Assembly: GCA_017406005.1 (NCBI GenBank)
Contig: JAFQZI010000127.1
Location: 1 to 42,074, forward strand
Source of the DNA: Oscillospiraceae bacterium
GTDB taxonomy: Bacteria; Bacillota; Clostridia; Oscillospirales; Oscillospiraceae
Reading direction: 5' to 3'
DNA length: 42,074 bases
Shown here: positions 5,033 through 31,685 of the stretch, in pieces
How the letters are laid out: the number at the start of each line of letters is the position of its first letter
Position numbering within the stretch: the first letter of the stretch is position 1
Made by a program: the position numbers and the translations under genes
The notes under the pieces: generated by a model
Databases searched by the model: none
What the model was told of the DNA's origin: nothing
The model's input: the letters and a program-made list of their open reading frames with translations, nothing else

Positions 5033-5041
5033 GACTATGAA

Positions 5042-5068
5042 ACAGACCGGCAGCCGAATGGCTGCCGG
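5042..5068. repeat. Hairpin repeat copy 3
   Basis: AACAGA then CCGGCAGCC-GAAT-GGCTGCCGG and TTGTATGTT, a third copy of the island-border hairpin. It lies between the end of the cassette and the convergent S10 peptidase gene, and may terminate either, although T-runs are weak. Confidence 0.72.
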
Positions 5069-10165: not shown

Positions 10166-10680
10166 TCAGACAAAAATCGTCTTCCCATGCGATTTCCGGG
10201 CTGTTTGTTTTTCTGCTGCTGGGGATCTTTGCCGTGTTTTCCACCGTGATGGTGCTTCTGGGTGTAAAAGCGTACCGCAGTGCGGTAGAGCGGACGGAGG
10301 CACACAACAGCACGCGCATCAGCACCTCCTATATTCGGTCGATGCTCCGGGCGGAGGATGAGACAGAGATCTTTGCATTAGAGACCTGTGAAGGCTTTGT
10401 CGGCGAAGCAGACGGAGAGACAGCTGTCAGGGTAGAAACGCTCACCCTGCATCATGATTATGACGGAGAAGAATACGTCACGAGGATCTATGTCTACGGC
10501 GGTTTTCTGCGGGAATGGTTTACCCATGCCGAGGAGCCGTTCCGCCCGGATCAGGGTGAAATCGTCTGTCCCGCGGAAGAACTGACGGCTGAATACAGCG
10601 GTTCCCTGCTGAAGGTTCAGGTCGCTGCAGGCGGAGAGCGGGAGGAAGTTATACTTGCGCTTCGCGCCGCCGGGGAATAA
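10162..10680 (+). CDS. Pilus-operon membrane protein (DUF4860-like)
   Basis: 172 residues, one N-terminal membrane helix at about 11-36 (ISGLFVFLLLGIFAVFSTVM), then an extracytoplasmic beta-rich domain (SYIRSMLRAEDETEIFAL, TRIYVYGGFLREWF). From memory this resembles DUF4860 proteins, found in clostridial pilus operons; the name is not verified. Starts on the ATGA overlap with the preceding gene. Probably a minor pilin-like or accessory protein of the machine. Confidence 0.7.
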   Translation: MIRQKSSSHAISGLFVFLLLGIFAVFSTVMVLLGVKAYRSAVERTEAHNSTRISTSYIRSMLRAEDETEIFALETCEGFVGEADGETAVRVETLTLHHDYDGEEYVTRIYVYGGFLREWFTHAEEPFRPDQGEIVCPAEELTAEYSGSLLKVQVAAGGEREEVILALRAAGE

Positions 10681-10691
10681 TGTTACTACGC

Positions 10692-10760
10692 GGTTAGTGC
10701 GGTGCAGGTTGCGCGGGAGGATAACGCTGCGGCACGCTTTTGGTGCGGTGTCCCGCGCTA
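10692..10760 (+). repeat. Structured intergenic repeat, subfamily A copy 1
   Basis: GGTTAGTGCGGTGCAGGTT followed by outer arms GCGCGGGA (10711-10718) and TCCCGCGC (10751-10758), with an inner stem GCAC/GTGC around the shared core CACGCTTTTGGTGC. It lies in the 160-base gap that splits the pilus operon. Confidence 0.75.
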
Positions 10761-10840
10761 ATAGCGAGGAATGAGAGCTTACGAGGGTTGGAACGAATAG
10801 TTAACGTGATAGTTGATGAACGGGGTGGTGAAAGAGGAAA

Positions 10841-11236
10841 ATGAACAGGAATCATCAAGGGAATGCCCTGCTGGTGGAGCTTCTGATTGTGGTGCTGTTT
10901 TTTATGCTGGCATCCACAGTATTGCTGCAGCTCTTCGCCTCTGCGCGGAGCCAGGGAGACAAAGCCGAGGCTCTTACAAAAGCAATGGGGCAGGCGCAGA
11001 ACATTGCCGATACGCTCTATGCTGCGGAGGATATGGAAGCGGCACTTGAAGAGCTTGGCTTTTCCCCGGAGGGAGAACGCTGGGTGCTTCCGGAAGGGAA
11101 ATGCACCGCATCCGTTGTGCTTGCCTGCGAGGAAACGGGAGCCGGTGCTTTCACCCGATATACTGTCAGCATTCTGGAGGGAGAAGAAGTTCTGATCACC
11201 CTGCCGGGTGCGCGTTTTGAGGAGGCTTCGGAATGA
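10841..11236 (+). CDS. Prepilin-like protein
   Basis: 131 residues with an N-terminal region like class III/IV prepilins: QGNALLVELLIVVLFFMLAS, a Gly followed by a long hydrophobic helix with a Glu near its start. In standard prepilins the Glu is residue 5 after the cleaved Gly; here it is residue 6, so processing is uncertain. The C-terminal domain is small and beta-rich (GFSPEGERWVLPEGKC). AGAGGAAA precedes the ATG. Last four bases overlap the next gene. Confidence 0.72.
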   Translation: MNRNHQGNALLVELLIVVLFFMLASTVLLQLFASARSQGDKAEALTKAMGQAQNIADTLYAAEDMEAALEELGFSPEGERWVLPEGKCTASVVLACEETGAGAFTRYTVSILEGEEVLITLPGARFEEASE

Positions 11237-11673
11237 AAAACAAAAGCAGCATCAGCCTGGGGCCCGGTGCTCCTTCTCTGATTTTGATTTTCGTAGCGCT
11301 GAGTCTGGCGGCGCTTGGAATGCTCTCCCTGATGACAGGCCGAAACGATCTTCGTCTGGCCGAGCGAAGTGTTCAGGTCACCGAGGCGGTTTATGCCCTG
11401 CAGGTCAGGGCAGAGGAATGCCGCGCAGAGATTGAGGAGATTCTGACGGATTCTGCAGATTCCCCGGAAGGCGAGGAAGACCTCTCAACGTTGGAGGCTG
11501 CTCTGCCGGATACTGTGGAACAGGACGGCAGCCTGCTTTTCTTTACGGTGGAAGACGGGGCCAGAATGCTCGACTGCACCCTGGAGGTGCTTCCGTCGGG
11601 AGCAAAACCGCGTACTGCCTGGGTGCGGTACAATCTTTCAGCAGAGACGGAGGATGATTCATGGAACTGGTAG
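11233..11673 (+). CDS. Pilus-operon membrane protein (minor pilin or PilX-like)
   Basis: 146 residues; one N-terminal membrane helix (SLILIFVALSLAALGMLSLM) followed by a helical stretch (RLAERSVQVTEAVYALQVRA) and a small C-terminal domain. This layout is that of minor pilin/PilX-like assembly proteins, but no family-specific motif is visible. Overlaps both the preceding gene (ATGA) and the start of the PilT-like gene by 13 bases, so it is firmly part of the operon. Confidence 0.65.
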   Translation: MKNKSSISLGPGAPSLILIFVALSLAALGMLSLMTGRNDLRLAERSVQVTEAVYALQVRAEECRAEIEEILTDSADSPEGEEDLSTLEAALPDTVEQDGSLLFFTVEDGARMLDCTLEVLPSGAKPRTAWVRYNLSAETEDDSWNW

Positions 11674-12713
11674 AACTTCTTCGCCGGGCAGTTTCCCTCG
11701 GCGGATCCGATATCTTCGTTGTTCCCGGCTCGGGTGTGATGGTAAAGGTTAACAACACCATGCAGCAGCTTACCGACGGGAAGCTCTTTTCACCGGACAC
11801 GGAACTCCTGGTGCACAAAATGTATGAGCTTGCCCATCGTGATTTTCATCAGCTGGACGAAGCCGGAGATGATGACTTTTCCTTTGCGATTCAGGATGTC
11901 AGCCGCTTTCGCTGCAATGCCTACAAACAGAGGGGGTCTGTCGCTGCCATCTGCCGGATTGTCAATTTTGAACTGCCGGATGCAACCCGGATGAACATTC
12001 CGCCCCAGGTTATGGATCTGGCCGGTCTGCGCAGCGGGATGGTGCTGGTCACAGGGCCAGCGGGGAGCGGGAAAAGCACGACCCTTGCCTGTCTGGTGGA
12101 TAAAATCAACACGGAGCGGGAAGACCATATCATCACGATTGAGGATCCCATTGAATATCTGCACCGGCACAAAAAATCGCTGGTTTCCCAGCGGGAAGTC
12201 CCGAATGACGCATCCACCTTTTCCCGGGCTCTGCGTGCAGCGCTCCGGCAGGCGCCGGATGTGATACTGCTTGGAGAAATGCGGGATCTTGACACCATCC
12301 GCACCGCAATCACCGCGGCGGAAACCGGGCATCTGCTCCTCTCCACACTCCATACGATCGGGGCAGCCAAGACGATAGACCGAATTGTCGACACCTTCCC
12401 TGCGGAGCAGCAGACGCAGATCCGTGTGCAGCTGTCCATGGTGCTCAAAGCCGTGGTTTCCCAGCGCCTTGTTCCTGCAAAGGATGGAAAACGCATCCCG
12501 GTATTTGAACTGATGACGGTCAATCCCGCAATCCAGAACATGATCCGTGACGGCCGCACCCATCAGATCGACAATGTGATTTTCGGCGGCAGTGATAAGA
12601 CCATGATCTCCATGGATGCCGAACTGCAGAAACTGGTACGCGAAGGATCCGTTTCCCGGGAAATGGCGCTGCTGTATGCGGCAAATCCTGAAACACTGGC
12701 GAAAAGAATTTAA
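11661..12713 (+). CDS. pilT: PilT-like retraction ATPase
   Basis: 350 residues, normal for PilT. Walker A GPAGSGKST at 132-140, Asp-box region EDPIEYLH at about 161-168, Walker B-like VILLGEMRD at 201-209, and His box HLLLSTLHT at 224-232. PilT is a hexameric cytoplasmic motor that depolymerises type IV pili and powers twitching. No PilB-type extension ATPase occurs in the operon, so PilB must be encoded elsewhere or this protein works in both directions. The start overlaps the previous gene. The C-terminal targeting AIRNLIRE motif of classical PilT is not recognisable. Confidence 0.9.
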   Translation: MELVELLRRAVSLGGSDIFVVPGSGVMVKVNNTMQQLTDGKLFSPDTELLVHKMYELAHRDFHQLDEAGDDDFSFAIQDVSRFRCNAYKQRGSVAAICRIVNFELPDATRMNIPPQVMDLAGLRSGMVLVTGPAGSGKSTTLACLVDKINTEREDHIITIEDPIEYLHRHKKSLVSQREVPNDASTFSRALRAALRQAPDVILLGEMRDLDTIRTAITAAETGHLLLSTLHTIGAAKTIDRIVDTFPAEQQTQIRVQLSMVLKAVVSQRLVPAKDGKRIPVFELMTVNPAIQNMIRDGRTHQIDNVIFGGSDKTMISMDAELQKLVREGSVSREMALLYAANPETLAKRI

Positions 12714-12748
12714 AAATCCGGAGTCATTCCGGGCAGGAGGAAATACTG

Positions 12749-13534
12749 ATGGATCTTGACAGAAATTATTTCAACAGCATCCGGTTAAATACCCGCAGAG
12801 GAAAATATTATGACGTGGAAGCAGTAGATAAACTTCTGGTAGACATCAGGAGCAAAGCGGATACCCTGAACAGAGAAGTGCAGTCTTCCCGTGAAAAGCT
12901 GGCCGAGGCGGAAAGAACTGCCGATGCCCTGCGGGAAGAAAACAATGAACTTTTTCTGAAGGGTCAGGCCCTCAGCCAGGAAATCCTCTCCCTGCGGGAA
13001 GAACTGAAAGCGGCTCAGGCGGGAGAAGCATCTCTGATCCCGGAGGACGAAGAGGATGAGCCGGTTTCGGAAGAGGATTCGGCGGAAAAACGATCCTTGT
13101 GGGAAGAGAACGAGGAGTTTTATTTCCTGACGGAAGAACTGCCGGAACCGAGAAAGCACGAAGAGGCTTCCAGAGAAAAAAAGGAGGAGCGGGAAGAAAA
13201 ATGCTCCGAAGAAGACAGCTCGGCAGAGGAAGAGCAGAAGACATCGGTTCTTCTGGAGGAAGCAGAGCGGAAAGCCGAAGAAATTCTGACCCGTGCCGAC
13301 GCAGAACGGGATCGGATCCTCAGTGAAGCGAGGTTTGAGCGGCAGAAAACCGTGGAGAGAATGGAACGTGTTTTTGCGATGCTCAAGGAGATCAGTACCT
13401 ACACGATCGAGAAGTCCGAGCGGGTTCACGAGGAATTTCTCCGGGCAGTAGCCGGAGAAGAAGGTGCGCCTGAGGATCTCTCCGAGAAAGTCGGCAGGAT
13501 CGCCGCGGAGCTCAGTGAGCTGGAAGAGGATTAA
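12749..13534 (+). CDS. DivIVA-like coiled-coil protein
   Basis: 261 residues. The N-terminus (FNSIRLNTRRGKYYDVEAVD, at 8-27) resembles the DivIVA/GpsB membrane-binding head with its RGKYYD..EVD.LL pattern. Residues about 30-90 form a coiled coil, 95-165 is a very acidic low-complexity linker, and 165-230 is a second coiled coil (AERKAEEILTRADAERDRIL). DivIVA proteins gather at poles and septa and recruit partners. GGAGG precedes the ATG. It follows pilT by 35 bases and ends at a terminator, so it is probably cotranscribed with the pilus genes and could place the machine in the cell. Confidence 0.75.
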   Translation: MDLDRNYFNSIRLNTRRGKYYDVEAVDKLLVDIRSKADTLNREVQSSREKLAEAERTADALREENNELFLKGQALSQEILSLREELKAAQAGEASLIPEDEEDEPVSEEDSAEKRSLWEENEEFYFLTEELPEPRKHEEASREKKEEREEKCSEEDSSAEEEQKTSVLLEEAERKAEEILTRADAERDRILSEARFERQKTVERMERVFAMLKEISTYTIEKSERVHEEFLRAVAGEEGAPEDLSEKVGRIAAELSELEED

Positions 13535-13553
13535 TTTGGATGGAAGCTTCGCG

Positions 13554-13621
13554 ATGAGTGCGGTGCATATTGCGCGGAAGACAAGGCTGTACCACGCTTT
13601 TGGTGCGCTGCTCCGCGCATA
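13554..13621 (+). repeat. Structured intergenic repeat, subfamily A copy 2
   Basis: GAGTGCGGTGCATAT then outer arms TGCGCGGA (13571-13578) and TCCGCGCA (13612-13619), with the core TGTACCACGCTTTTGGTGCG between. Nearly identical to copy 3, 77 bases away. Confidence 0.8.
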
Positions 13622-13650
13622 GTGTATGGTTAAAAATTGATAGCGATAAG

Positions 13651-13685
13651 AAAAGCTCACGCGGTGTCAAGCCGGGTGAGCTTTT
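13651..13685. terminator. Bidirectional intrinsic terminator
   Basis: 10-bp stem AAAAGCTCAC / GTGAGCTTTT with a 15-base loop, A-run on one side and T-run on the other. It serves the pilus operon (+) and dacA (-). It is sandwiched between repeat copies A2 and A3. Confidence 0.85.
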
Positions 13686-13698
13686 AAAAGTATTTTTG

Positions 13699-13766
13699 GT
13701 TAGTGCAGTGCATATTGCGCGGAAGACAACGCTGTACCACGCTTTTGGTGCGCAGCTCCGCGCATA
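13699..13766 (+). repeat. Structured intergenic repeat, subfamily A copy 3
   Basis: GGTTAGTGCAGTGCATAT then arms TGCGCGGA (13716-13723) and TCCGCGCA (13757-13764) around the core TGTACCACGCTTTTGGTGCG. It ends 33 bases before the dacA stop. Confidence 0.8.
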
Positions 13767-13798
13767 GGAGGGGAAGCGTAAAGGGGAAGATAAAAATG

Positions 13799-15343
13799 CT
13801 ACTGGTTATCCGAGAAGAAATCGGCGAGATCGTCCCCGATAGCAGCCTCTGAAGAGCCATTGGAGCCCCTGACGCGGTATTGTTCCGCGGAAAGGGGCTT
13901 CTTTTCCTCCGGAGGAAGGGTTTCCCGGAAGCGCATCATGTCCTCCTGGACAGCACGGCTTTCCGCGAGGCTCGCTTCCCGTTGAGCCTCAAGTGCCCGG
14001 CGTTCTTCCTGCTCCTGCCGCTCCCGCAGATGGCGGCGCCGGAGAGCTCGATAGCGCAGAATCAGAAAAAAGATGACCAGGAGGCCTCCCGCTGCGGCGA
14101 CAGCTGCTGTTTTGATCCATGGCTCTGCCAGCAATTCCTGCATCTGCGCCTTAAGCTGTGCTTTCCGGTCCAGCAGAACATCTTCCGAAGTGGCCAGCCG
14201 GATGGTCGTGTAAGGTTTTCCTTCGATCAGAACGGAAGCTGTCCCGAGCACGGTCCCTGCCGGAATCGGTGCGGTCAGCTCAGCATAACGGATATCCGGC
14301 ACGATCTGAATATCCTCGTCCTTCATTTCTTTCGGCAGGAGAAGCGAAATCTCTTCTGTGGAACGCAGAACAGCCGGAGCATTCCCGACGGCATAGGTGA
14401 CCGGCACCTGGGTGATCTGCTCCCCGATGGACAGAATGCGGCGGGAAACAAAGTTCCGGAAAGCCCAGTTATAGAGGCGGATTGTTCCGGAAAAGTTCCC
14501 GTAATCGTCCTGTCCGGTGTTCAAAGGCCCGTTGCAGCCCAGCAGGACTGCCAGCAGGCGGATGCCTTCTTTTTCGGCGGTGGAAACCAGGCAGTAGCCG
14601 GCCGCGCTGGTATATCCTGTTTTCACACCGGATGCGCCGGAATAAAGGTAGTCATCCCCGTAAATTCCGTCCTGGCAGATGAGAGCATTGGAATTTTTCA
14701 GAGTTCGGGTTTTTTTGTAGATATTCGTCGGAGCAATTTCATAGGAGAGGGTATCAACGATCTCTGCAAACAGCTCATGGCGCATGGCCTCCCGAGAAAT
14801 CAGGAAGAGGTCATAGGCGGTCGTATAATGACGGGAAGAAGAGAGTCCGTTTGTATCGGAAAAGTAAGTATCCACTGCACCGAGCTCGGACGCACGCATA
14901 TTCATCCGGTTGATGAACGTCTGAATGTTGCCGGCAACGGCAGCGGCAACGACATTGCATGCCTCATTGGCCGATTTGACCAGCGCACAGTAAAGATAGT
15001 CGCCAAAGCTCATCTGCTCTCCCGGGGAGATTTCTGCATTGCTGCTGTCGGAATCCAGCCCGCTCCAGCAGTCGGCCGGAGCTGTGATCACGGTGTCCAT
15101 GCTGATGTCTCCGCGCTCCACTGCTTCCACGGCGAGCAGGCCTGTCATGATTTTGGTCAGGCTGGCAGGGGGGCATTTTTCATGCATGTTCTTCTCGTAA
15201 AGAATCGTTCCGGAGTCCGGATCAGCCAGAACGACAGCCTCTGCGGTTACGGACGGGGCTGTCAGCGCAGCCGCCTGCGGCGCAACTGCAGAAAAGAACA
15301 GGCAGAGGAGCAGGTAAAGAGACAGAAGAGATCGGGTTTTCAT
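13799..15343 (-). CDS. dacA: D-alanyl-D-alanine carboxypeptidase (PBP5 type)
   Basis: 514 residues. Signal peptide (SLLSLYLLLCLFFSAVAPQA), then a penicillin-binding carboxypeptidase domain with SxxK (S61-K64 in ASLTKIM), SxN (S124-A-N126) and KTG (K241-G243 in VKTGYTSAAG). It trims the terminal D-Ala of peptidoglycan stem peptides outside the membrane. A second beta-rich PBP5-C-like domain follows, then a membrane helix at about 412-432 and a charged cytosolic tail of about 80 residues rich in Arg/Glu. That tail is longer than usual for the family. GGAAGAAA precedes the ATG. Confidence 0.92.
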   Translation of the reverse strand: MKTRSLLSLYLLLCLFFSAVAPQAAALTAPSVTAEAVVLADPDSGTILYEKNMHEKCPPASLTKIMTGLLAVEAVERGDISMDTVITAPADCWSGLDSDSSNAEISPGEQMSFGDYLYCALVKSANEACNVVAAAVAGNIQTFINRMNMRASELGAVDTYFSDTNGLSSSRHYTTAYDLFLISREAMRHELFAEIVDTLSYEIAPTNIYKKTRTLKNSNALICQDGIYGDDYLYSGASGVKTGYTSAAGYCLVSTAEKEGIRLLAVLLGCNGPLNTGQDDYGNFSGTIRLYNWAFRNFVSRRILSIGEQITQVPVTYAVGNAPAVLRSTEEISLLLPKEMKDEDIQIVPDIRYAELTAPIPAGTVLGTASVLIEGKPYTTIRLATSEDVLLDRKAQLKAQMQELLAEPWIKTAAVAAAGGLLVIFFLILRYRALRRRHLRERQEQEERRALEAQREASLAESRAVQEDMMRFRETLPPEEKKPLSAEQYRVRGSNGSSEAAIGDDLADFFSDNQ

Positions 15344-15390
15344 GATTTGTTTTCTTCCTGATAGTTAAGGTATTGGTCCTTCGTAATAAA

Positions 15391-15453
15391 TGCGGGGCCC
15401 CTTGCGCGGGAAGTGTTGTTGTACCAGGATTGTAGGTACGCTGTCCCGCGCTT
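15391..15453 (+). repeat. Structured intergenic repeat, subfamily A copy 4
   Basis: Diverged copy. Outer arms GCGCGGGA (15404-15411) and TCCCGCGC (15444-15451) pair perfectly; the inner stem is GTACC (15421-15425) / GGTAC (15435-15439). Compared with copies 2-3 both stems differ by compensating changes. It sits between the divergent dacA and efp genes. Confidence 0.75.
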
Positions 15454-15560
15454 TATTTAGTGCAGCGATTTCTGAGATAGCGATACGGTAGATTACTATT
15501 ATATCGGAAGGGTTTGGCAAAGTCAAAGAAAACACGCGGGTTTGAAAGAAGAAAAAAGTG

Positions 15561-15589
15561 TTGCAAAGTACGTTGCAATCAGGTAAAAT
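15561..15589 (+). promoter_or_regulatory. Promoter of efp
   Basis: TTGCAA (15561-15566), 17-base spacer, TAAAAT (15584-15589), about 50 bases before the efp start. Confidence 0.7.
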
Positions 15590-15640
15590 ATTCCGGTAAA
15601 GGCAATTCGCTTATTTATTCTTTTTGGGAGGTCAAAATAG

Positions 15641-16204
15641 ATGGGTACCATTACAGCGGGTGATTTCCGCAACGGTGTTACGTACGAGGAAGACGGTCAG
15701 GTAAAGCAGGTCGTTGAGTTTCAGCATGTCAAGCCGGGCAAAGGCGCAGCTTTCGTTCGCACCAAAAGCAAGAATGTGATTACCGGTGCCGTGACGGAGA
15801 CGTCCTACAACCCCACCGCCAAATTTGAAACGGCGACGATTGACCGTATGACGGCGGAATACAGCTACAGTGACGGAGATCTTTACTACTTCATGAACCC
15901 GGAGACATACGAGCTCGAGCCGGTTGACGGTTCCGTGCTGGGTGATAACTTCAAGTTCGTCAAGGAGAATATGGAGTGCACGATCTATTCTTATAAGGGC
16001 AAAGTCTTCAATGTGGAACCGCCGTTCTTTGTTGACCTTGAAGTAACGGCTACCGATCCCGGTTTTGCCGGCAATACGGCCACCAATGCCACGAAGCCCG
16101 CAACACTGGAAACCGGCGCAGAGATCAAAGTTCCTCTGTTCATTGAAACCGGAGAGATCATCAGGGTTGACACCCGAACGGGTGAATATCTCAGCAGAGC
16201 ATAA
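15641..16204 (+). CDS. efp: Elongation factor P
   Basis: 187 residues, the standard length for EF-P, which enters the ribosome E site and relieves stalling at polyproline stretches. The loop lysine lies in [14 protein letters not shown], and the three domains (KOW-like, OB, OB) are continuous, ending with the signature [18 protein letters not shown] precedes the ATG. Single-gene transcript with its own promoter and terminator. No modification enzyme gene (EpmA, EarP or YmfI type) is adjacent. Confidence 0.97.
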
Positions 16205-16213
16205 AAAAGGAGC

Positions 16214-16237
16214 GGAGGGCGGAAGCCCTCCGTTTTT
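16214..16237 (+). terminator. Intrinsic terminator of efp
   Basis: GGAGGGC-GGAA-GCCCTCC followed by GTTTTT, ten bases after the efp stop. Confidence 0.92.
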
Positions 16238-16249
16238 GATTAGCCTATC

Positions 16250-16319
16250 GCGGCAGGTGCGCAGCAGGTTGCGCGGAAGTCAACATTACGGCACGATCCT
16301 GGTGCGCTGCTCCGCGCTC
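16250..16319 (+). repeat. Structured intergenic repeat, subfamily A copy 5
   Basis: GCGGCAGGTGCGCAGCAG then arms GCGCGGA (16271-16277) and TCCGCGC (16311-16317); inner stem GCAC (16291-16294) / GTGC (16302-16305). First of a tandem pair before rarA. Confidence 0.75.
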
Positions 16320-16345
16320 TGAAGAGGGTTGGGAGCGTTTTGTAA

Positions 16346-16412
16346 CCGGTGCAGTGCATGTTGCGCGGAAGACAGCAATGCGGTACGATTTCAGTACGGT
16401 ATTCCGCGCTAT
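16346..16412 (+). repeat. Structured intergenic repeat, subfamily A copy 6
   Basis: CCGGTGCAGTGCATG then arms GCGCGGAA / TTCCGCGC (16363-16370, 16402-16409); inner stem GTAC (16383-16386) / GTAC (16394-16397), again different from copy 5 but still paired. It ends 41 bases before the rarA start and may be in its leader. Confidence 0.75.
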
Positions 16413-16452
16413 GTGGCGGTTGTGGAGCTGCTTTTTTGGATTGGAGGTTCAT

Positions 16453-17712
16453 ATGGACGAAAGGTATAAGCCGCTGGCAGATGAGATCCGGCCGGAATCT
16501 CTGGATGATGTGGTCGGGCAGAAGCATATTCTCGGCCCCAACGGCATGCTGCGGCGCATTGTCCTCAGCGGATCGGTGCCGAATATGATATTTTACGGCC
16601 CCTCGGGCACGGGGAAAACCACGGTTGCCCGCATTATCGCCGAGCGCACCAGCCGCACCCTCCGCAGGCTCAATGCCACCACCGCGGGGATTGCCGATAT
16701 CAAGAAGATTATCGACGAGCTGGATACATTCCTCACCCCCGGCGGTGTGCTGCTCTATCTCGATGAGATCCAGTATTTCAACAAAAAGCAGCAGCAGAGT
16801 CTCCTGGAGTTTATGGAGGACGGCCGGATCACGCTCATCGCTTCCACCACCGAAAATCCGTATTTCTGCGTCTTCGGGGCAGTGCTGAGCCGTTCGACGG
16901 TGTTTGAGTTTAAACCCGTCGCTCCGGAGGAAGTGCGTCAGGCTGTTTTACGGGCGGTCGGTATTGCCAACGCCCGCCGTACGGTTCCCGTCACGGTTGA
17001 GGAGGATGCAATAAAGCGGATCAGCCTTGCCTGCGGCGGGGATGTGAGAAAGGCGATGAATGCACTCGAGCTGCTGTTTTCCACCGTGGAAGACGGCGGT
17101 GTGATCACCGAGGAAGACGCCGCGGCTGTGACGCAGAAAAGCGCCGTCCGCTATGACAGGGACGGCGATGAGCATTATGATATTCTTTCTGCCCTGATGA
17201 AGTCTCTCCGCGGTTCCGATCCCGATGCTGCGCTTCATTATCTGGCGCGGGTGCTGGAGACCGGGGATCTCCCCGGAGTCTGCCGACGGATCCTGTGCTC
17301 TGCCAGCGAAGATATCGGTCTTGCCTGGCCGCAGGCTGTGCCGGTGGTGAAGGCCTGTGTGGACAGCGCGTTGCAGCTCGGGCTGCCGGAAGCGCGCCTC
17401 CCGCTGGCAGAGGCCTGTATTTTCCTTGCCACCTGCCCGAAGAGCAACACCGCCTGTCTGGCCATCGATGCGGCCCTCAGCGATGTGCGCGCCGGAAAGG
17501 CCGGCAGCATTCCCCGCCAGCTTCAGAATGTACATGCGGACGGAACGGGTTTTGAACGGGAGCAGGGATATCTCTATCCGCACAGCTTCCCGAACCGCTG
17601 GGTGCCGCAGCAGTATCTGCCCGATGAGCTGAAAGACGTGCGGTATTATGATTACGGCGACAACAAGACGGAACAGGCAGCAAAGGCGTACTGGGAGAAG
17701 ATCAAGGGGTAA
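16453..17712 (+). CDS. rarA: Replication-associated recombination ATPase RarA
   Basis: 419 residues, typical of RarA/MgsA, a clamp-loader-like AAA+ ATPase that acts at stalled replication forks. N-terminal signature PLADEIRPESLDDVVGQKHI, Walker A GPSGTGKT at 49-56, Walker B LYLDEIQ at 101-107, sensor STTENPYF, and the family C-terminal domain ending YLPDELKDVRYYDYGDNK. The ATG at 16453 has GGAGG five bases upstream; an open frame reaching into repeat A6 is not part of the gene. The last 11 bases overlap the 3' end of the convergent CotH gene. Confidence 0.95.
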   Translation: MDERYKPLADEIRPESLDDVVGQKHILGPNGMLRRIVLSGSVPNMIFYGPSGTGKTTVARIIAERTSRTLRRLNATTAGIADIKKIIDELDTFLTPGGVLLYLDEIQYFNKKQQQSLLEFMEDGRITLIASTTENPYFCVFGAVLSRSTVFEFKPVAPEEVRQAVLRAVGIANARRTVPVTVEEDAIKRISLACGGDVRKAMNALELLFSTVEDGGVITEEDAAAVTQKSAVRYDRDGDEHYDILSALMKSLRGSDPDAALHYLARVLETGDLPGVCRRILCSASEDIGLAWPQAVPVVKACVDSALQLGLPEARLPLAEACIFLATCPKSNTACLAIDAALSDVRAGKAGSIPRQLQNVHADGTGFEREQGYLYPHSFPNRWVPQQYLPDELKDVRYYDYGDNKTEQAAKAYWEKIKG

Positions 17713-20077: not shown

Positions 20078-20160
20078 GAGAAGAAAACCTTTAGGAATAA
20101 ATCAATGTTGCCTTATTATACAGGAATTCAATTGTTCGGTCAATTCTGTTTAAACCTGCA

Positions 20161-20189
20161 TTGCGAAAAACTGCACTGCTTGTTATAAT
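20161..20189 (+). promoter_or_regulatory. Promoter of the flavoprotein pair
   Basis: TTGCGA (20161-20166), 17-base spacer, perfect TATAAT (20184-20189). Transcription from here would include repeat B1 in a leader of about 155 bases. Confidence 0.6.
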
Positions 20190-20202
20190 GTAATAGTTTA
20201 GT

Positions 20203-20320
20203 TACCTCGTGATCAGTGCAGACCAGATGAAGCAAGGATCGTCACGCGTTTCTCGCGCGTCGTGATGCTCGCGCAAAAACATTGTACCTCGATTTTGGTG
20301 CACGGGCGCGAGCTCAGTAT
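20203..20320 (+). repeat. Structured intergenic repeat, subfamily B copy 1
   Basis: CCTCGTGATCAGTGCAGACCA at the left, outer arms GCTCGCGC (20267-20274) / GCGCGAGC (20306-20313), core TTGTACCTCGATTTTGGTGC at 20282-20301. An extra hairpin-like insertion rich in CGCG lies at about 20235-20265. The terminal inverted repeat seen in B3/B4 is degenerate here (AATAGTTTAGT). Located in the leader of the downstream gene. Confidence 0.72.
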
Positions 20321-20351
20321 AGAGTGAGAGAAGAAAAAGGAAGGTTCCGGG

Positions 20352-21557
20352 ATGAAAAAAGTAGTAATCATCGGCGGAGGGGCGTCGGGCATGGCGGCGG
20401 CGCTCACCGCCGCGGAAGGAAAAGAGAATACGGTGATCCTGCTCGAACGGCAAAGCCGGGTGGGTAGGAAGCTGCTTGCCACAGGCAACGGCCGGTGCAA
20501 CCTCACCAATACAGGTGCCGCGCTGAAGAACTATCACGGACAAAATCCCGCCTTCGCCCTGCCGTCGCTGCAAGCTTTCCCGCCGGAAGAAGTGATCACC
20601 TGGTTTCGTTCTCTGGGCCTTGTCACAACTGAGCAGTACGGCGGCCGTGTTTTTCCCCTGTCGGAATCGGCAGGCAGCGTGCTGGATGTGCTGCGTTTTG
20701 CACTTGCCTCAGCCGGCGTTGCAGTCCATGCCGGAGAGACGGCGAAGAGGCTGGAAAAAAGCGACGGAAAGCTGACGGTCACCACAGATCTGGCTGTTTA
20801 CCGGGCGGACGCTGTCATCGTTGCCTGCGGCGGAAAGGCGGGCGGAAAACTCGGAGGGGTCTCCGACGGGTATGACCTTCTCTCCTCCCTCGGCCACCGA
20901 TGCACCCCGCTCTACCCCGCTCTCGTCCCACTGAAAACCGATACCGACTTTCCACGGTCTTTGAAGGGAGTACGGGCTGAAGCAGCGATCCGGCTTGTCA
21001 GGGGAGGAAAACTCTGCGGAAAGAGCCGCGGGGAACTGCAGTTTACGGAAAAGGGAGTTTCCGGGCCGGCGGCGTTTGATCTGTCCCGGGAGGCCTCCGT
21101 CGGCGGGGGGGAACTGATTCTCGATTTTCTGCCTGATCTCCCGGAAGAGGAAGTTCTTACTCTGCTCTGCCGACGGCAGGAGCTGTCGCCGGAGCTCGAA
21201 AACGGCAGCATCTTTGCTGGAATGCTGCACAGCAGGCTCGGCATGGCTGTGGTACGCGCATCGGGCCTGCGGCCGTCCGGCAATATCGGAGAGCTGACCG
21301 CACGAGACGTTTCGGCACTTTTGCAGACGGCAAAGGCGTTTTGCCTTTGCGTCACGGGGACGGACAGTTTTGACAATGCCCAGATCACGGCAGGCGGGAT
21401 CTGCACGGACGGCTTTGACCCCGACACCCTGGAGAGCCGCCTGGTGCCCGGGGTGTTTGCCTGCGGGGAAGTCCTCGATCTGGATGGGGACTGTGGCGGC
21501 TACAATCTCCAGTGGGCCTGGGCAAGCGGGCGGAAGGCAGGGAGGCTCGGAGCATGA
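20352..21557 (+). CDS. FAD-dependent oxidoreductase, HI0933/YhiN (BaiN-like) family
   Basis: 401 residues, full family length. Rossmann dinucleotide site VVIIGGGASGMAAALTAAEG at 4-23, then the family signature GRKLLATGNGRCNLTN, and the C-terminal FAD-contact stretch DGDCGGYNLQWAWASGRKAG. These flavoproteins are called aminoacetone oxidase-like or BaiN-like in databases; the physiological substrate is mostly unknown. AAGGAAGG precedes the ATG. Stop and next start overlap (ATGA), so it forms an operon with a second flavoprotein. Confidence 0.9.
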   Translation: MKKVVIIGGGASGMAAALTAAEGKENTVILLERQSRVGRKLLATGNGRCNLTNTGAALKNYHGQNPAFALPSLQAFPPEEVITWFRSLGLVTTEQYGGRVFPLSESAGSVLDVLRFALASAGVAVHAGETAKRLEKSDGKLTVTTDLAVYRADAVIVACGGKAGGKLGGVSDGYDLLSSLGHRCTPLYPALVPLKTDTDFPRSLKGVRAEAAIRLVRGGKLCGKSRGELQFTEKGVSGPAAFDLSREASVGGGELILDFLPDLPEEEVLTLLCRRQELSPELENGSIFAGMLHSRLGMAVVRASGLRPSGNIGELTARDVSALLQTAKAFCLCVTGTDSFDNAQITAGGICTDGFDPDTLESRLVPGVFACGEVLDLDGDCGGYNLQWAWASGRKAGRLGA

Positions 21558-23149
21558 TTCTGATTCGAAATCTCCAGCTCCTGCCGGGAGAGAGCCCGGA
21601 GCTGCTTCCGAAAAAAGGTGCAAAAAAACTCCGGGTCCAGCCGCGGGAGATCCGGGAGATGCGTATCATCCGCCGCTCACTGGATGCCAGGCGCGGACAT
21701 CAGATTCATTATACCTTGAGTGCCGCCTTTTCGGTACAGGGAGAAGAGGACGCGCTGATTGCCAGGGCAAAGAGCCGGGACGTTTCTCTTTATCAGGAGC
21801 AGCCGCTCCCGCAATGGAAGGCCGCTCCGCAGAGCGGGGGTCGTCCGGCCGTCGTCGGATTCGGCCCGGCAGGCATGTTTGCAGCACTCGTGCTGGCGCG
21901 TGCCGGTATGCGGCCTCTGGTGATCGAGCGCGGGCAGGAAGTCTCCAAAAGGCAGGCGGCAGTGGAAACCTTCCGCCGGACGGGTATGCTGGATCCCGAG
22001 AGCAATGTCCAGTTCGGAGAGGGCGGGGCCGGTACGTTTTCGGACGGGAAGCTCAACACCGGCACACACGACGGGCGCATCCCGTTTGTTTTACAGACGT
22101 TTTATGAGCATGGTGCACCGGAAGCAGTCCTGTTCGATGCAAAGCCGCACATCGGTACGGATGTGCTTACCGGGGTTGTAAAAAGCATCCGGGAAGAAAT
22201 CCTTTCGCTAGGCGGGGAGATCCGCTTTGAAACCCGGCTGGAACGTCTCTGCCTCGACGGTAATACGCTGACAGCTCTGGAAGTGACGGGCCCGGGAGGA
22301 GATTATTCTGTCCCCTGCCGCCGGGCAATCCTCGCTGTCGGGCATTCCGCGCGTGATACGTTTGAAAACTTGTATGCCCAGGCTGTCCCGATGGAGCGCA
22401 AGGCCTTTTCCATGGGGGCGCGGATCGAGCATCTTCAGCGGGAAGTCAGTTTCGCACAGTACGGAAAAACCATGGATCTGCTCCCCCCGGCGGACTATTC
22501 CCTGAGCGTCCACCTGCCGGGCGGGGCAAGCGCCTATACCTTCTGCATGTGCCCGGGCGGCTATGTCTTTGCCGCAGCCAGCGAAGCGGGCGGAGTATGC
22601 ACCAACGGGATGAGCTACTCCGGCCGGAGCGGAACAAACGCCAATGCAGCACTGCTTGTGACGCTGCATCCGGAGGATTTCCCCGGGGAAGGGCCTCTCG
22701 CCGGGATGTTCTGGCAGCGCGAAATCGAACGAAAAGCGTATCTCTATGCCGCCTCTGCCGGGCCTTATGCGGCGCCTGCACAGCTGGTGGGGGATTTTCT
22801 GGCCGGCCGACCGAGCACTGGCCCGGGGCGAATCCTGCCGACCTACCTGCCCGGCGTGTGCTGGGGGGATCTGCATCAGGTCCTGCCGGAAAAAATCACA
22901 ACTGTCCTGGCGGAAGCGCTCCCGGCACTGGACCGCAAGCTGCAGGGTTTTGCCGATCCCCAGGCGGTGCTGACCGGGCCGGAAACCCGTTCCTCCTCCC
23001 CCGTACGTATTCTGCGCGGGGCGGACTGCCGGTCGGTTTCCGTGGTCGGGCTCTATCCCTGCGGCGAGGGGGCGGGCTATGCAGGGGGTATTACCTCTGC
23101 CGCGGTCGACGGTATCCGCTGCGCGGAAGCGGTATTAAATTTTACCTAG
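21554..23149 (+). CDS. FAD-dependent oxidoreductase, COG2509-like
   Basis: 531 residues. An N-terminal domain of about 100 residues (LRVQPREIREMRIIRRSLDA then RRGHQIHYTLSAAF) precedes the FAD domain: VVGFGPAGMFAALVLARAGM, VIERGQEVSKRQ, FGEGGAGTFSDGKLNTG. The C-terminus has the flavin-contacting LYPCGEGAGYAGGITSAAVDG. Proteins of this type are widespread, uncharacterised predicted dehydrogenases. GGGAGG nine bases before the overlapping ATG fixes the start. The 3' end overlaps ruvX (convergent) by 15 bases. Confidence 0.88.
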   Translation: MILIRNLQLLPGESPELLPKKGAKKLRVQPREIREMRIIRRSLDARRGHQIHYTLSAAFSVQGEEDALIARAKSRDVSLYQEQPLPQWKAAPQSGGRPAVVGFGPAGMFAALVLARAGMRPLVIERGQEVSKRQAAVETFRRTGMLDPESNVQFGEGGAGTFSDGKLNTGTHDGRIPFVLQTFYEHGAPEAVLFDAKPHIGTDVLTGVVKSIREEILSLGGEIRFETRLERLCLDGNTLTALEVTGPGGDYSVPCRRAILAVGHSARDTFENLYAQAVPMERKAFSMGARIEHLQREVSFAQYGKTMDLLPPADYSLSVHLPGGASAYTFCMCPGGYVFAAASEAGGVCTNGMSYSGRSGTNANAALLVTLHPEDFPGEGPLAGMFWQREIERKAYLYAASAGPYAAPAQLVGDFLAGRPSTGPGRILPTYLPGVCWGDLHQVLPEKITTVLAEALPALDRKLQGFADPQAVLTGPETRSSSPVRILRGADCRSVSVVGLYPCGEGAGYAGGITSAAVDGIRCAEAVLNFT

Positions 23150-23542
23150 ATAACCCTCCAGAATCAGGCTGGCGGCGACGGCATCCACGGTCTTGCGGTG
23201 TTTTTTTTCCTTCCTGCCGTTGGCGTGAAGAATCGCATGCGCTTCGATGCTGCTGCGCCGCTCATCCCATAAGACCACCGGCAGATCGGTAACGGTTTCC
23301 AGCAGAGCCTTGAAGGCTCTGCTTTTTTCTGCACGCGGGCCCTCTGTCCCGTCCATGTTCTTCGGCAGGCCGAGCACAAGGGTTTCCGCGTTGCGCGCGC
23401 TTGCCTCTTCCGCAATTCTTGCGGCGGCGCGCTCCATATTCCATTCTTCCATCGTCCAGGCATCTCCGCAGATGGTGCCGGTCGGATCCGAAACGGCGAG
23501 GCCGATGCGCGCATCGCCGTAGTCAATTGCCATGATTCTCAT
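23135..23542 (-). CDS. ruvX: Pre-16S rRNA nuclease / Holliday junction resolvase-like RuvX (YqgF)
   Basis: 135 residues, the normal length. RNase H-like fold with first acidic residue in MAIDYGDARIGLAVSDP, the block TLVLGLPKNMDGTEG, and DERRSSIEAH and the last acidic residue in KTVDAVAASLILEGYL. YqgF proteins mature the 5' end of 16S rRNA; a Holliday-junction role is also proposed. Start at 23542 has GAGG upstream; an ATG three codons later is possible. Confidence 0.95.
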   Translation of the reverse strand: MRIMAIDYGDARIGLAVSDPTGTICGDAWTMEEWNMERAAARIAEEASARNAETLVLGLPKNMDGTEGPRAEKSRAFKALLETVTDLPVVLWDERRSSIEAHAILHANGRKEKKHRKTVDAVAASLILEGYLGKI

Positions 23543-23572
23543 TCCTGTTTACCTCAAAGAAAAAGAAAATTG

Positions 23573-23650
23573 CCTCGTAATCAGTACAATGCAGGTTTCG
23601 CGCGAGAACAACAGGTTACTGCTTACGAACTGCTCCTTCGCGCGAACAAA
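23573..23650 (+). repeat. Structured intergenic repeat, subfamily B copy 2 (diverged)
   Basis: CCTCGTAATCAGTACAATGC, then arms TTCGCGCGA (23597-23605) and TCGCGCGAA (23638-23646). The core is changed (GTTACTGCTTACGAAC) but GTT/AAC can still pair. Lies upstream of ruvX, in opposite orientation to the adjoining copy B3. Confidence 0.6.
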
Positions 23651-23662
23651 AGGGGGAAAGAT

Positions 23663-23773
23663 AACTGTTCAGTCCCGTCCTTTCCTCTGCTCGCGACGGA
23701 GCACCGAAATCGAGGTACATTGTTATCTTCGCGAGCACCGGGTTTGCACTAATCACGAAGTGACTGAACAGTT
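23663..23773 (-). mobile_element. Subfamily B copy 3: MITE-like element with terminal inverted repeats
   Basis: 111 bases bounded by perfect 11-base inverted repeats AACTGTTCAGT (23663-23673) and ACTGAACAGTT (23763-23773). Inside, arms GCTCGCGA (23689-23696) / TCGCGAGC (23729-23736) enclose the shared core read on the minus strand (GAAATCGAGGTACATTG on plus). No coding capacity. It ends 12 bases after the folC stop. No clear target-site duplication is visible. Confidence 0.7.
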
Positions 23774-23785
23774 ACCAAGTTTGCT

Positions 23786-25054
23786 TTAGTAACAGCCGAA
23801 AAGTTCGCGAATCGGGCCGGCGAGATACAGCGAGCCTGCAGCGCATACCATGCCGCCCGTCTCTTTCGCCCGATCCGTTGCGGCGGAAACACCCTCTGCG
23901 ACCGACGGATACGCACTTGCCTTCCAGCCGGCAGAGCGCAGAAAGGCGGCGAGGTCTTCTGCCGGCAGGGCTCGCGGGCTGTCGGGGGTAACGCAGCAGA
24001 TTTCATCGGATACGGAACGGAGAAGGGAGAAGATCGAAGCGTAGTCCTTGTCCTTCATCACACCGGCGAGCAGAATGCGTTTCTGCCCGGGGAAGTAATG
24101 CAGCAGGTTTTCGGCGAGTTCTTCCGCACACTGCGGGTTGTGCCCGCCGTCCAGGATAAAATACGGGTCATCGGAAAGCACTTCAAAACGCGCCGGCCAG
24201 GAGACGGCGTACAGCCCGTGCTCCAGCGCTTCCCTGCTGATCTTCCAGCCCTTTTCACGCAGCACATCGATGGCTTCGATCACGGTGGCTGCATTTCTGC
24301 GCTGATAGGCCCCAACGAGCGGGATGGCATACGGCTCTCCCCGGTAGGAGAATACCTGTCCGTCCAGACTGTCAAATTCCGGTTCAATCCGGGAGAAATC
24401 TGCCCTGTGCAGCCTTGCGCCGAGTCGTCGGCAGGTCTCTTCAATAACGGCTTCAGCTTCCCGGCTCTGCCGGTAAAGCACGCAGTCACAGTCCGGCTTC
24501 AGAATGCCGGCTTTTTCTGCAGCGATCTCCGAGATCGTGTTGCCGAGAATCCTGGTGTGATCCAGCCCGATGTTCATGATCACGCAGGCCTCCGGGCCTT
24601 CTATGCTGTTGGTGGCGTCGTACCGCCCGCCGAGTCCGGTTTCCAGCACCGCAATATCACAGTGCTGTGCGGCAAACCAGAGAAAAGCGCAGGCTGTCAT
24701 CATCTCAAAAGCCGTGGGGTGCTCTGCCATGGCCTCCGCCGCTTTCCGGACGGCGGTGGCATGCTCTGCCAGCGCCTCATCTTCGATTTCCCTTCCGTTG
24801 ATCTGCATGCGCTCGTTGAAGCGGTGCAGATAGGGGGAGGTGAAGAGCCCCGTGCGATACCCTGCGGCCTTCAGCACGGAGGCGGTCATTGCCGCGCAGC
24901 TTCCTTTCCCGTTGGTCCCTGCGATGTGGACAGCCCGGAAAGCTTTCTGCGGTTCGCCGAGCGCGGATAACAGCGCCCGGGTGCGCCCAAGTCCCGGTTC
25001 GCCCCCGAACCACGTTGTGGAATTGATGTATTCAAGAGACTCCTTGTAATTCAT
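23786..25054 (-). CDS. folC: Folylpolyglutamate synthase / dihydrofolate synthase
   Basis: 422 residues, typical for FolC, which adds glutamate to folates (and dihydropteroate) in the cytoplasm. Mur-ligase-like P-loop AVHIAGTNGKGSCAAMTASV (GTNGKGS at 46-52), folate-site LFTSPYLHRFNERMQING, and the family blocks VLETGLGGRYDATN, IGLDHTRILG, and FILDGGHNPQCAEELAENL. The ATG at 25054 has GGAAA upstream; the open frame continues 157 codons further but those contain non-coding repeat A7 and a promoter region, so the longer start is rejected. Confidence 0.95.
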   Translation of the reverse strand: MNYKESLEYINSTTWFGGEPGLGRTRALLSALGEPQKAFRAVHIAGTNGKGSCAAMTASVLKAAGYRTGLFTSPYLHRFNERMQINGREIEDEALAEHATAVRKAAEAMAEHPTAFEMMTACAFLWFAAQHCDIAVLETGLGGRYDATNSIEGPEACVIMNIGLDHTRILGNTISEIAAEKAGILKPDCDCVLYRQSREAEAVIEETCRRLGARLHRADFSRIEPEFDSLDGQVFSYRGEPYAIPLVGAYQRRNAATVIEAIDVLREKGWKISREALEHGLYAVSWPARFEVLSDDPYFILDGGHNPQCAEELAENLLHYFPGQKRILLAGVMKDKDYASIFSLLRSVSDEICCVTPDSPRALPAEDLAAFLRSAGWKASAYPSVAEGVSAATDRAKETGGMVCAAGSLYLAGPIRELFGCY

Positions 25055-25084
25055 ATGCTTTCCTTTTCTGATGATCAGGTATCT

Positions 25085-25152
25085 CGCGGCCGGTGCACAG
25101 CAGATTGCGCGGAAGGGAATGTTTAGCACGCTTCCGGTGCTCTGTCCGCACT
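25085..25152 (+). repeat. Structured intergenic repeat, subfamily A copy 7
   Basis: CGCGGCCGGTGCACAGCAG then TGCGCGGA (25106-25113) facing TCCGCACT (25145-25152) with one mismatch near the end; inner stem AGCAC (25125-25129) / GTGCT (25137-25141), one pair longer than in other copies. Located between the divergent folC and rpmG genes. Confidence 0.72.
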
Positions 25153-25244
25153 GAAAAAGGGAATGGCTGTAGCACTGGAGTAAATAAATTATAATATATG
25201 CATCAAATTTCTGCAAGAAAAACAACAGAATCATAAAAATTTGA

Positions 25245-27671: not shown

Positions 27672-27684
27672 AATGTCTTATAGT

Positions 27685-27802
27685 AACTGTTCAGTTCTGT
27701 TCTTCCCACAATACTAAGCTCGCGCCCGCGCAACAAAATCGAGGTACAATATTGTTCGCGCGAGCACTTGGTTCGCACTGATCACGAGGGGACTGAACAG
27801 TT
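27685..27802 (-). mobile_element. Subfamily B copy 4: MITE-like element with terminal inverted repeats
   Basis: 118 bases bounded by AACTGTTCAGT (27685-27695) and ACTGAACAGTT (27792-27802), the same perfect ends as copy B3. Inside, arms GCTCGCGC (27718-27725) / GCGCGAGC (27758-27765) flank AACAAAATCGAGGTACAATA, the core on the minus strand. No coding capacity. It sits 5 bases after the stop of the oxidoreductase gamma gene, a position parallel to B3 behind folC. Confidence 0.75.
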
Positions 27803-27807
27803 CCCCA

Positions 27808-31353: not shown

Positions 31354-31425
31354 TGACCCGGACGAGAATCGAACTCGTGTTACCGCCGTGAAAGGGCGGT
31401 GTCTTAACCGCTTGACCACCGGGCC
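31354..31425 (-). tRNA. tRNA-Glu (anticodon TTC)
   Basis: Minus strand cloverleaf: acceptor GGCCCGG / CCGGGTC with one G-U pair, anticodon stem CCGCC / GGCGG enclosing CTTTCAC (anticodon TTC), T-arm with TTCGATTC. Discriminator A; CCA is not encoded. Second gene of a two-tRNA transcript after tRNA-Met. Confidence 0.95.
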
Positions 31426-31463
31426 GCAGGAAAGGCGCAGACGTAATGCTGCGCCTTTTTTGG

Positions 31464-31537
31464 TAGCGGCACCTGGATTTGAACCGGGGACACTGCGGGT
31501 ATGAACCGCATGCTCTAGCCAGCTGAGCTATGCCGCC
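31464..31537 (-). tRNA. tRNA-Met (anticodon CAT, elongator-like)
   Basis: Minus strand: acceptor GGCGGCA / TGCCGCT, D-arm with AGCTCAGCTGGCTAGAGC, anticodon stem TGCGG / CCGCA enclosing TTCATAC (CAT), T-arm GGTTCAAATCC. The first acceptor pair is G-U and the anticodon stem lacks the three G-C pairs of initiator tRNA, so it is elongator Met; a lysidine-modified tRNA-Ile cannot be excluded fully. CCA is not encoded. Confidence 0.92.
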
Positions 31538-31556
31538 ATGTCGAAACAGCTTGTAT

Positions 31557-31585
31557 ATTTTAGCAAACAATAAACGTCTTGTCAA
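31557..31585 (-). promoter_or_regulatory. Promoter of tRNA-Met/tRNA-Glu
   Basis: Minus strand consensus TTGACA (31580-31585), 17-base spacer, TAAAAT (31557-31562), about 20 bases before tRNA-Met. Confidence 0.85.
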
Positions 31586-31645
31586 CTAAAATTTACATAT
31601 TCTCCCGAAATATTTGCATCATTTCAAAGAAGTCAAAATTTTTTC

Positions 31646-31674: not shown

Positions 31675-31685
31675 AATCAAGCTAT

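Follow-up and report, generated by a model that had tools for sequence, protein, structure and literature searches.

Are the structured repeats of the window (the whole 42,074-nt stretch of an Oscillospiraceae bacterium contig that was analysed) a functional RNA or copies of a mobile DNA element? The original prediction described seven intergenic repeats with compensating base changes, termed subfamily A, and recognised no named family in them. R1, a covariance model built from these seven copies, recovers all of them in place (62.9-87.2 bits) and adds four window members at 19.9-35.7 bits; the next score falls to 10.2 bits (E = 0.38). R2 was built from an 84-copy alignment. The R1 and R2 searches give a window total of 11 copies. 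Over the whole genome, R1 yields 134 matches at E <= 10 among the best 150 candidates. At least 150 copies are found with R2 at E <= 0.01 (all 150 candidates scored), which exceeds chance; 10 more, beyond those 150, come from further model searches. The repeat family is real. Subfamily A is an incomplete view of it, being one stem type (GCGCGG; 22 of 145 copies) of a wider family.

The core is about 79 nt long: 5' motif CNTCGT-N4-AGTGC (consensus CTTCGT or CCTCGT), outer stem of 7-9 bp, looser inner hairpin. Full copies measure about 115-121 nt (longer with P0), carry no gene of their own and are dispersed, within the size of miniature inverted-repeat transposable elements (MITEs; <500 bp). 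Only tRNAs of the window are matched by Rfam 15, and the copies are unmatched at E up to 10 across 10600-16500, in keeping with the absence of a named family. The exact consensus patterns were not found in IMG/VR or GTDB contigs, where entries for this genome or close to it may be omitted. Distant BLAST, from which near-source records are possibly left out too, returned nothing from INPHARED phages or PLSDB plasmids for a host copy, nor from INPHARED for a phage copy. No description of the family was found in the open-access literature searched, a scope that falls short of proof of novelty. Integron attC sites and group I introns were discarded on inspection by eye.

All window copies of subfamily A lie on the plus strand; their R2 scores are given in brackets. 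The copy at 10683..10762 (69.5 bits) lacks terminal inverted repeats (TIRs; its ends score 7 and 9 out of 12, with the 9 off the usual spacing). That at 13544..13622 (65.8 bits) stands directly behind the plus-strand ORF 12749-13534 and shares its gap with 13689..13767 (62.3 bits; direct repeat D1), to which it is 95% identical over 66 nt. The copy at 15376..15455 (49.9 bits) occupies a divergent gap ahead of an EF-P-like gene. Downstream of that gene, after what looks by eye like a terminator hairpin, lie 16243..16321 (53.5 bits) and, in the same gap, 16335..16413 (56.3 bits). The seventh is at 25079..25155 (51.9 bits). Two further cores on the plus strand belong to other stem types: 20239..20317 (49.3 bits; TIR scores 8 and 6 of 12), GCTCGCG-like with a P0 insert and a 5' motif displaced upstream, near 20200-20225; and 23570..23649 (54.6 bits), with the TTCGCGCG stem. 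The remaining two are full elements with TIRs, both on the minus strand: 23661..23775 (core 23685-23763; 89.2 bits; TIR 12/12 and 12/12) and 27684..27804 (core 27714-27792; 75.6 bits; TIR 12/12 and 11/12). A common direction, as first described, thus holds for the initial seven and fails for the 11.

The compensating changes proposed for the outer arms persist when more copies are aligned: in the 84-copy alignment, 97.6% of outer-stem cells are paired and four of the eight pairs have changed on both sides. Those proposed for the inner arms are partly upheld; the arms do pair in part, in registers that differ from copy to copy, and for a shared inner stem of five pairs, 68.5% of cells of the same alignment are paired. 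Pairing of the inner hairpin is therefore weaker and not consistent across copies. Folded singly, the seven sequences are at most slightly more stable than their shuffled versions (z 0.00 to -1.40); 23653-23777, which spans the TIR copy at 23661, reaches z -3.9 as RNA and -3.5 as DNA. RNAalifold retains just four pairs, and one stem pair alone is individually significant in a covariation test of all column pairs. Judged from the aligned copies, the outer stem is under selection. This selection could also reflect an RNA role.

A minority class, to which two window copies belong, has 14-bp TIRs (GTAACTGTTCAGTC) starting with GTAACTG. A TIR at 9/12 or better is found upstream of 38 and downstream of 42 of 145 copies (shuffled flanks: 4 and 3); 24 of the 145 have it at both ends and 32 more at one end. 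In about one third of the genome, four TIR-like strings stand outside the listed copies, and two of them are element fragments. An 8-bp target duplication is detected when 21 TIR copies are pooled (mean 4.33 of 8 matching vs 2.30 in mismatched pairs, z 6.8; two perfect). By its sequence, this class is MITE-like with IS66-like ends: like IS66 elements, it has a TIR starting with GTAA and an 8-bp direct repeat, whereas the IS66 TIRs that PMC11946415 describes are 20-30 bp long and start with GTAAGCG. TIRs are absent from the GCGCGG (22/22) and GCTCGG (10/10) types. No target duplication is seen in TIR-less copies, where the best of thousands of offsets gives z 3.8-4.0 (TIR copies: 6.1), so the case for insertion of subfamily A comes from comparison with one relative.

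This relative, the syntenic genome G024, has no intact copy at any of the window's eight element-bearing gaps, which makes the window copies look like insertions. No element match is found in the G024 counterparts of the gaps holding the 10683, 16243, 20239 and 25079 copies. Gap lengths, window vs G024, are 143 vs 42 nt (15376 copy), 243 vs 15 nt (23570 and 23661 copies together) and 181 vs 74 nt (27684 copy). The counterpart of the 13544/13689 gap contains a G024-type copy truncated to its 5' half (12.8 bits), and some G024 gaps, such as the counterpart of the 16243/16335 gap, are not clean empty sites. For subfamily A, loss in G024 may stand in place of gain. In the named MAG relatives the corresponding gaps are too diverged or unsyntenic for use, and the gap comparison is with G024 alone. 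Many copies are present in 3 of 37 genus genomes; a fourth has one marginal match and 33 have none. The element was not found in 23 genomes of the order.

The family is common to phages, prophages and the host chromosome. Two phage contigs, reached via a neighbouring gene and again via the P0 pattern, contain 5 and 11 matches, every one on a single strand. The initial statement that all copies are intergenic does not extend to the family: copies lie in frame within the portal proteins of two prophage contigs, as Rickettsia palindromic elements (RPEs) do within protein genes, and within a virion-type ORF of one phage contig. Two reading frames are used. The portal is part of the phage head. Its homologue in phage G061, 85% and 87% identical to the two, lacks the extra residues; in the G062 portal, a shorter extra segment stands at this position and is not recognisable as the element.

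Gaps without intact copies in G024, TIRs with target duplications in one class and patchy spread favour mobile DNA over a fixed functional RNA. The repeats are most likely a non-autonomous palindromic mobile family (MITE/REP/RPE-like) of an uncultured Oscillospiraceae-type bacterium and its phages, with a selected hairpin and a putative mobilising enzyme. The TIR class, with its IS66-like ends, would be moved in trans by a putative DDE transposase. TIR-less subfamilies, A included, would be derivatives or be moved by another hairpin-requiring enzyme. The stem would be the substrate of mobilisation and hence be kept; it may be tolerated or even useful at mRNA 3' ends. Phages would carry the family from host to host. 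A narrower version is tentative: a phage-borne, RPE-like hairpin may multiply in phage genomes, even in frame in the portal gene, and seed host chromosomes by a strand-biased, hairpin-reading machinery that is no known REP or IS enzyme, the linked GIY-YIG endonuclease being one candidate.

That endonuclease is also the basis of a distinct and unlikely explanation, in which the hairpin is duplicated when homing cleaves gene ends and they are repaired, whether or not the endonuclease gene is copied along with it. A GIY-YIG ORF (phrog_314, E 2e-28) adjoins a copy in contigs C54, C68, C156, C167 and C24 of this genome, in both phage contigs and in contig C87 of G024; among 37 genus genomes searched for both, the two with a GIY-YIG endonuclease both carry the element. 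However, the adjacency mostly reflects one ancestral phage locus and is therefore not independent evidence, and the element carrier G020 (72% complete) has no GIY-YIG gene at E <= 1e-10. Nor does an element convincingly adjoin the GIY-YIG gene of C173 or its double-domain relatives in C16, C45, C64, C82 and C87. Homing would moreover leave the 8-bp target duplications unexplained.

The gene setting bears on a less probable reading still, that of a functional cis-acting RNA (e.g. mRNA 3'-end stabiliser, transcription insulator) spread through its benefit to preceding genes. Among the 138 copies with two called neighbours, 91 stand behind a same-strand gene, a median of 29 nt past its end, and convergent gaps are over-represented (53/138 copies vs 102/452 gaps). 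The selected outer stem and the single direction of the phage matches would also suit an RNA. Against this, co-directional gaps hold 28 antisense copies vs 38 sense ones (not decisive for an effect of gene strand), divergent gaps hold 19, and some copies lie in frame within genes; moreover, 33 of 37 genus genomes are without a match, and intact copies are missing from the orthologous gaps of the close relative.

Orientation is shared locally: of 142 copy pairs within 10 kb, 119 agree (71 expected). GC skew was rejected as the cause (per-stretch correlation: Spearman 0.02, p 0.88); 92 of 145 copies, which are not independent, match the skew sign of their own stretch, and 89 of 145 oppose its dominant gene strand. 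Local duplication was rejected as well (neighbours within 3 kb 64-66% identical vs 61% across contigs).

This agreement, the hairpin shape, the extragenic bias and a CGTCGT 5' motif in 8 of 21 G024 copies (by eye), which recalls the CGTC-tagged repeats described in PMC3733652, are what would be expected of REP-type elements moved as single-stranded hairpins by a Y1/HUH (RAYT or IS200) transposase, the least probable explanation, since Y1_Tnp is found in 22 of the 38 genomes of the genus irrespective of the element and is missing from carrier G020, the single Y1_Tnp gene of the genome adjoins no element (by eye) as a RAYT would, the CGTC-like tag is placed far upstream of the stem and not at its foot, and TIRs with target duplications in one class do not fit.

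As far as PMC3733652 and PMC2817692 describe them, REPs and CGTC-tagged repeats resemble the family in being dispersed, mostly extragenic hairpins with compensating stem changes, and the tag of the former source has its likeness in the 5' motif of some G024 copies. The family differs from these in length (about 80-120 nt, core about 79 nt, vs a palindrome of 20-40 nt with GTAG or CGTC at one end), in its two nested stems, in the distance of the motif from the stem foot and in having no RAYT link. RPEs, compared by description alone, are alike in being palindromic, about 80-150 nt long, and both intergenic and in frame within protein genes, in the accounts of PMC10969869 and PMC3733652; here the phylum is another, phages share the family, two frames are used and a TIR class has target duplications. 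The short gene-less elements that PMC10969869 presents are likewise numerous, include one class with both TIRs and direct repeats, and have REP-like truncated copies, whereas most copies here lack a recognisable TIR, several compensated stem types exist and phages carry the family. PMC3733652 leaves open by what means palindromic repeats that lack a dedicated transposase (CGTC REPs, some RPEs) spread.

A single family found across phages, prophages and a chromosome is here combined with a relative without intact copies, target duplications in a TIR class, in-frame insertion in a virion gene and strong local agreement in orientation. This combination makes the vehicle, the choice of target and the enzyme testable. 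It also means that stem covariation among paralogous genomic copies can signal a mobile element, and not a functional RNA alone.

The seven repeats of the original prediction, all of the GCGCGG outer-stem type (subfamily A), were aligned to build a covariance model (R1). Searched against the window, R1 recovered every one (62.9-87.2 bits). A further four copies scored 19.9-35.7 bits and the next score was 10.2 bits (E = 0.38); the window therefore holds 11 copies, located in eight intergenic gaps. A single direction had been claimed for all copies: the predicted seven are indeed all on the + strand, but two of the other four are on the - strand (two on +). Near-identical terminator-like hairpins, CCGGCAGCCGAA(A/T)GGCTGCCGG, are found behind different genes at 1319-1350, 2112-2143 and 5037-5068. 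The window also carries a 38-nt direct repeat (3000-3037 and 3887-3924, 89%; AAAAAGCTTCGGGAAGGGTTGCAATAAAAAAGCCGCGC) and a cluster of three tRNA genes (31354-31759; two on -, one on +).

A covariance-model search of the genome, proposed with the original prediction, revealed many further copies. R1 gave at least 134 matches at E <= 10 in the 3.52 Mb of the 174 contigs (among the best 150 of 1,173 candidates). A second model (R2), built from 84 of 102 non-redundant copies, gave at least 150 copies, 150/150 at E <= 0.01 (best 150 of 723 candidates). Ten copies outside these 150 were found in stretches searched later; 150 is therefore a floor.

The element consensus is CTTCGTnATnAGTGC, a spacer, then GCTCGCGAAGACAACATTGTACCTCGATTTnAGTGCTCCGTCGCGAGC. 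By eye, the inner hairpin loop and 3' arm of the consensus repeat the 5' motif. The outer stem exists in several types, whose arms match within each type: GCTCGCG (83/145 copies), GCGCGG (22), TTCGCGCG (12), GCTCGG (10) and seven rarer strings (8 together); 10 copies have no assigned type. The string CAAGGA, tag of a module (P0) preceding the outer stem, is present in 26 copies. Several phage or prophage copies (L314, L183, L187 and others) have another recurrent sequence behind them, AGAAGCCGCG...GTGTAGCGAGTGCACGGAGCAAAGGCG, which may be a further repeat family.

The compensating changes that had been proposed hold for the outer stem (97.6% paired in 84 copies, both-side changes at 4/8 pairs) but less for the inner arms, only 68.5% paired (both-side changes at 4/5 pairs). 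The covariation score of these copies was 0.208, versus 0.114 for shuffles and at most 0.117 for slid controls. Pairing was 97.5% (outer) and 69.5% (inner) in 118 copies fitted to the model, an alignment that leans to structure. All column pairs were tested for covariation with our own tree-based G-test (20 null replicates). One pair exceeded every null value (columns 31-75, 1-based; UA 49, GC 32). Second and fifth came two pairs of the outer stem, 34-72 (E = 0.45) and 29-77 (E = 1.0); ranks three and four were non-stem pairs. The seven copies folded singly showed little or no gain over shuffles and RNAalifold retained just four pairs. A full copy with terminal inverted repeats (TIRs) folds clearly better than its own shuffles (z -3.9 as RNA, -3.5 as DNA).

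TIRs were called at 9/12 or better in 145 copies and compared with shuffled flanks. The upstream TIR, AACTGTTCAGTC, was found in 38/145 copies (shuffled flanks, 4/145), the downstream TIR, GACTGAACAGTT, in 42 (shuffled, 3/145) and both in 24. In most of these 24, the left TIR abuts the 5' motif and the right one lies 17 nt past the core. Two further bases per side, mostly GT and A + C/T/A, extend the TIR to 14 bp. Outside the TIRs, an 8-bp direct repeat was detected in 21 copies (mean 4.33/8 versus 2.30 for mismatched pairs, z 6.8; best z over the 225 settings scanned 7.0, for a shorter word at the same place), perfect in two copies (CGGTAGAT, CTGTTTTT). By the 9/12 criteria, no TIR was found in GCGCGG (22) or GCTCGG (10) copies. 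A wide offset scan found no duplication around TIR-less copies (best z 3.3 for all 94; 4.0 for 39 GCTCGCG, 3.8 for 22 GCGCGG and 4.0 for 9 TTCGCGCG copies); the same scan gave 6.1 for 12 TIR copies. The only window copies with both TIRs are 23661-23775 and 27684-27804; the copy at 10683 has a right-end score of 9/12, off the usual spacing. Four TIR-like strings were found away from listed copies in a third of the genome; two are element fragments. According to excerpts of PMC11946415, IS66 elements have ends starting with GTAA and 8-bp repeats. The TIR copies agree in both, but their bases after GTAA differ.

G024, a genome of the same genus with 40 matches elsewhere, is syntenic with window 9.5-28.7 kb (73-90% identity). 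Seven of the G024 equivalents of the eight element-bearing gaps gave no R2 match. In the eighth, opposite the copies at 13544 and 13689, a G024-type copy is present as a truncated 5' half only (12.8 bits). Another weak match in these stretches (9.0 bits, E 0.3) falls within aligned sequence that is probably coding. Gap lengths (window/G024) are 270/116, 362/197, 143/42, 214/166, 380/241, 243/15, 174/106 and 181/74. The comparison shows that intact copies are absent; it does not make each gap a clean empty site.

Neighbouring genes are our own simple calls, some of them doubtful. A called gene is overlapped by more than 30 nt in 15/145 copies. Gaps of the 138 copies with two called neighbours are convergent (53), co-directional sense (38), co-directional antisense (28) or divergent (19); 91/138 copies lie behind a same-strand gene, at a median of 29 nt. 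Among R2's best 150 copies, 119/142 pairs within 10 kb agree in orientation (71 expected; reached in 0/5,000 permutations). Beyond 10 kb, 101/171 pairs agree (p 0.027), or 78/111 (p 0.001) after post hoc removal of seven prophage-bearing contigs. GC skew per stretch fails to explain the agreement, and so does local duplication. Strand-biased insertion is the simplest reading, not a proven one.

In several contigs a prophage gene is followed by the element; this gene led to two IMG/VR phage contigs with 5 and 11 matches, none of them on the opposite strand. One match of the 11 is weak (E 0.05). The portal protein of one is a distant relative (26%) of that of Bacillus phage Palmer and its kin. 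Phage copies lie directly behind genes or in frame inside ORFs. All copies had been described as intergenic, which applies to the 11 window copies but not to the family: the genome carries in-frame copies in the portal protein genes (phrog_156) of C157 (R2 35.0 bits; assignment E 3.5e-27) and C156 (25.9 bits; 3.6e-26). The homologue in phage G061, 85% and 87% identical to them, does not have the additional residues. In the phage G062 homologue an extra but shorter stretch (~17 residues) stands at the same place, not recognisable as the element. In-frame copies are read in two frames, e.g. GARSQSAAGGSEDNASATISDVYPSLN and ARKGTSACAPGAPSELS. The short contig C54:1-8166, whose five copies share a strand and whose GC skew is strong (-0.15), is probably a prophage fragment.

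Stricter filters were used in surveys of the genus (37 genomes, own included) and order (23 genomes). Many copies were found in G000 (at least 78), G024 and G020 (19 matches), one marginal match in G015 (E 0.009), and none in 33/37 genus or 23/23 order-level genomes. The 80 EF-P loci of related records (830 kb; best EF-P identity 92%) gave zero matches. Most of these records, from which the likely identity of the host was judged, are MAGs with Oscillospiraceae, Ruminococcaceae, Clostridia or Clostridiales in the title, and many come from the guts of ruminants or other animals. Exact consensus patterns gave none in IMG/VR or GTDB contigs, and distant BLAST none in INPHARED or PLSDB; own or very near genomes may be excluded from both results.

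As helper enzyme, a Y1 transposase was rejected: it occurs in 22/38 genus genomes, unrelated to element presence. A single IS200-type Y1 gene with small flanking hairpins is located at C16:12693-13049. At a phage locus the element adjoins a homing endonuclease of the GIY-YIG type (phrog_314; without a Pfam match at E <= 0.001). The endonuclease gene is found in 2/38 genus genomes, G000 and G024, both carriers; in G020, also a carrier, no gene reaches E <= 1e-10. Most of the adjacency traces to one ancestral locus, and the endonuclease is therefore a lead, not a result. Free-standing ORFs with tandem double GIY-YIG-like domains (L109:1159-2013, C82; L108:1153-2010, C45; L112:1237-2349, C87; L107:1168-2142, C64) have no convincing R2 match adjacent. 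In L187 (C24), a phage gene 3' end appears partly duplicated ahead of the element (intact gene end, spacer, repeated last codons, element, further on a GIY-YIG ORF), an arrangement resembling a scar left by homing. Phage homing endonucleases are the subject of excerpts of PMC10448857.

Family features were compared using excerpts of PMC10969869, PMC3733652, PMC2817692 and PMC11946415. The element does not fit the REP definition: its size, the position of its tag and the lack of a link to RAYT all differ (PMC3733652, PMC2817692, in part). As excerpted, RPEs are in-frame palindromes, as are some copies of the element here (PMC10969869, PMC3733652), and MITEs share the TIRs and duplications of one class of copies and the REP-like truncated copies (PMC10969869). 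No description of this palindromic family was found in the open-access literature searched. The repeats are a real, large family of palindromic, probably mobile elements common to phages and host.
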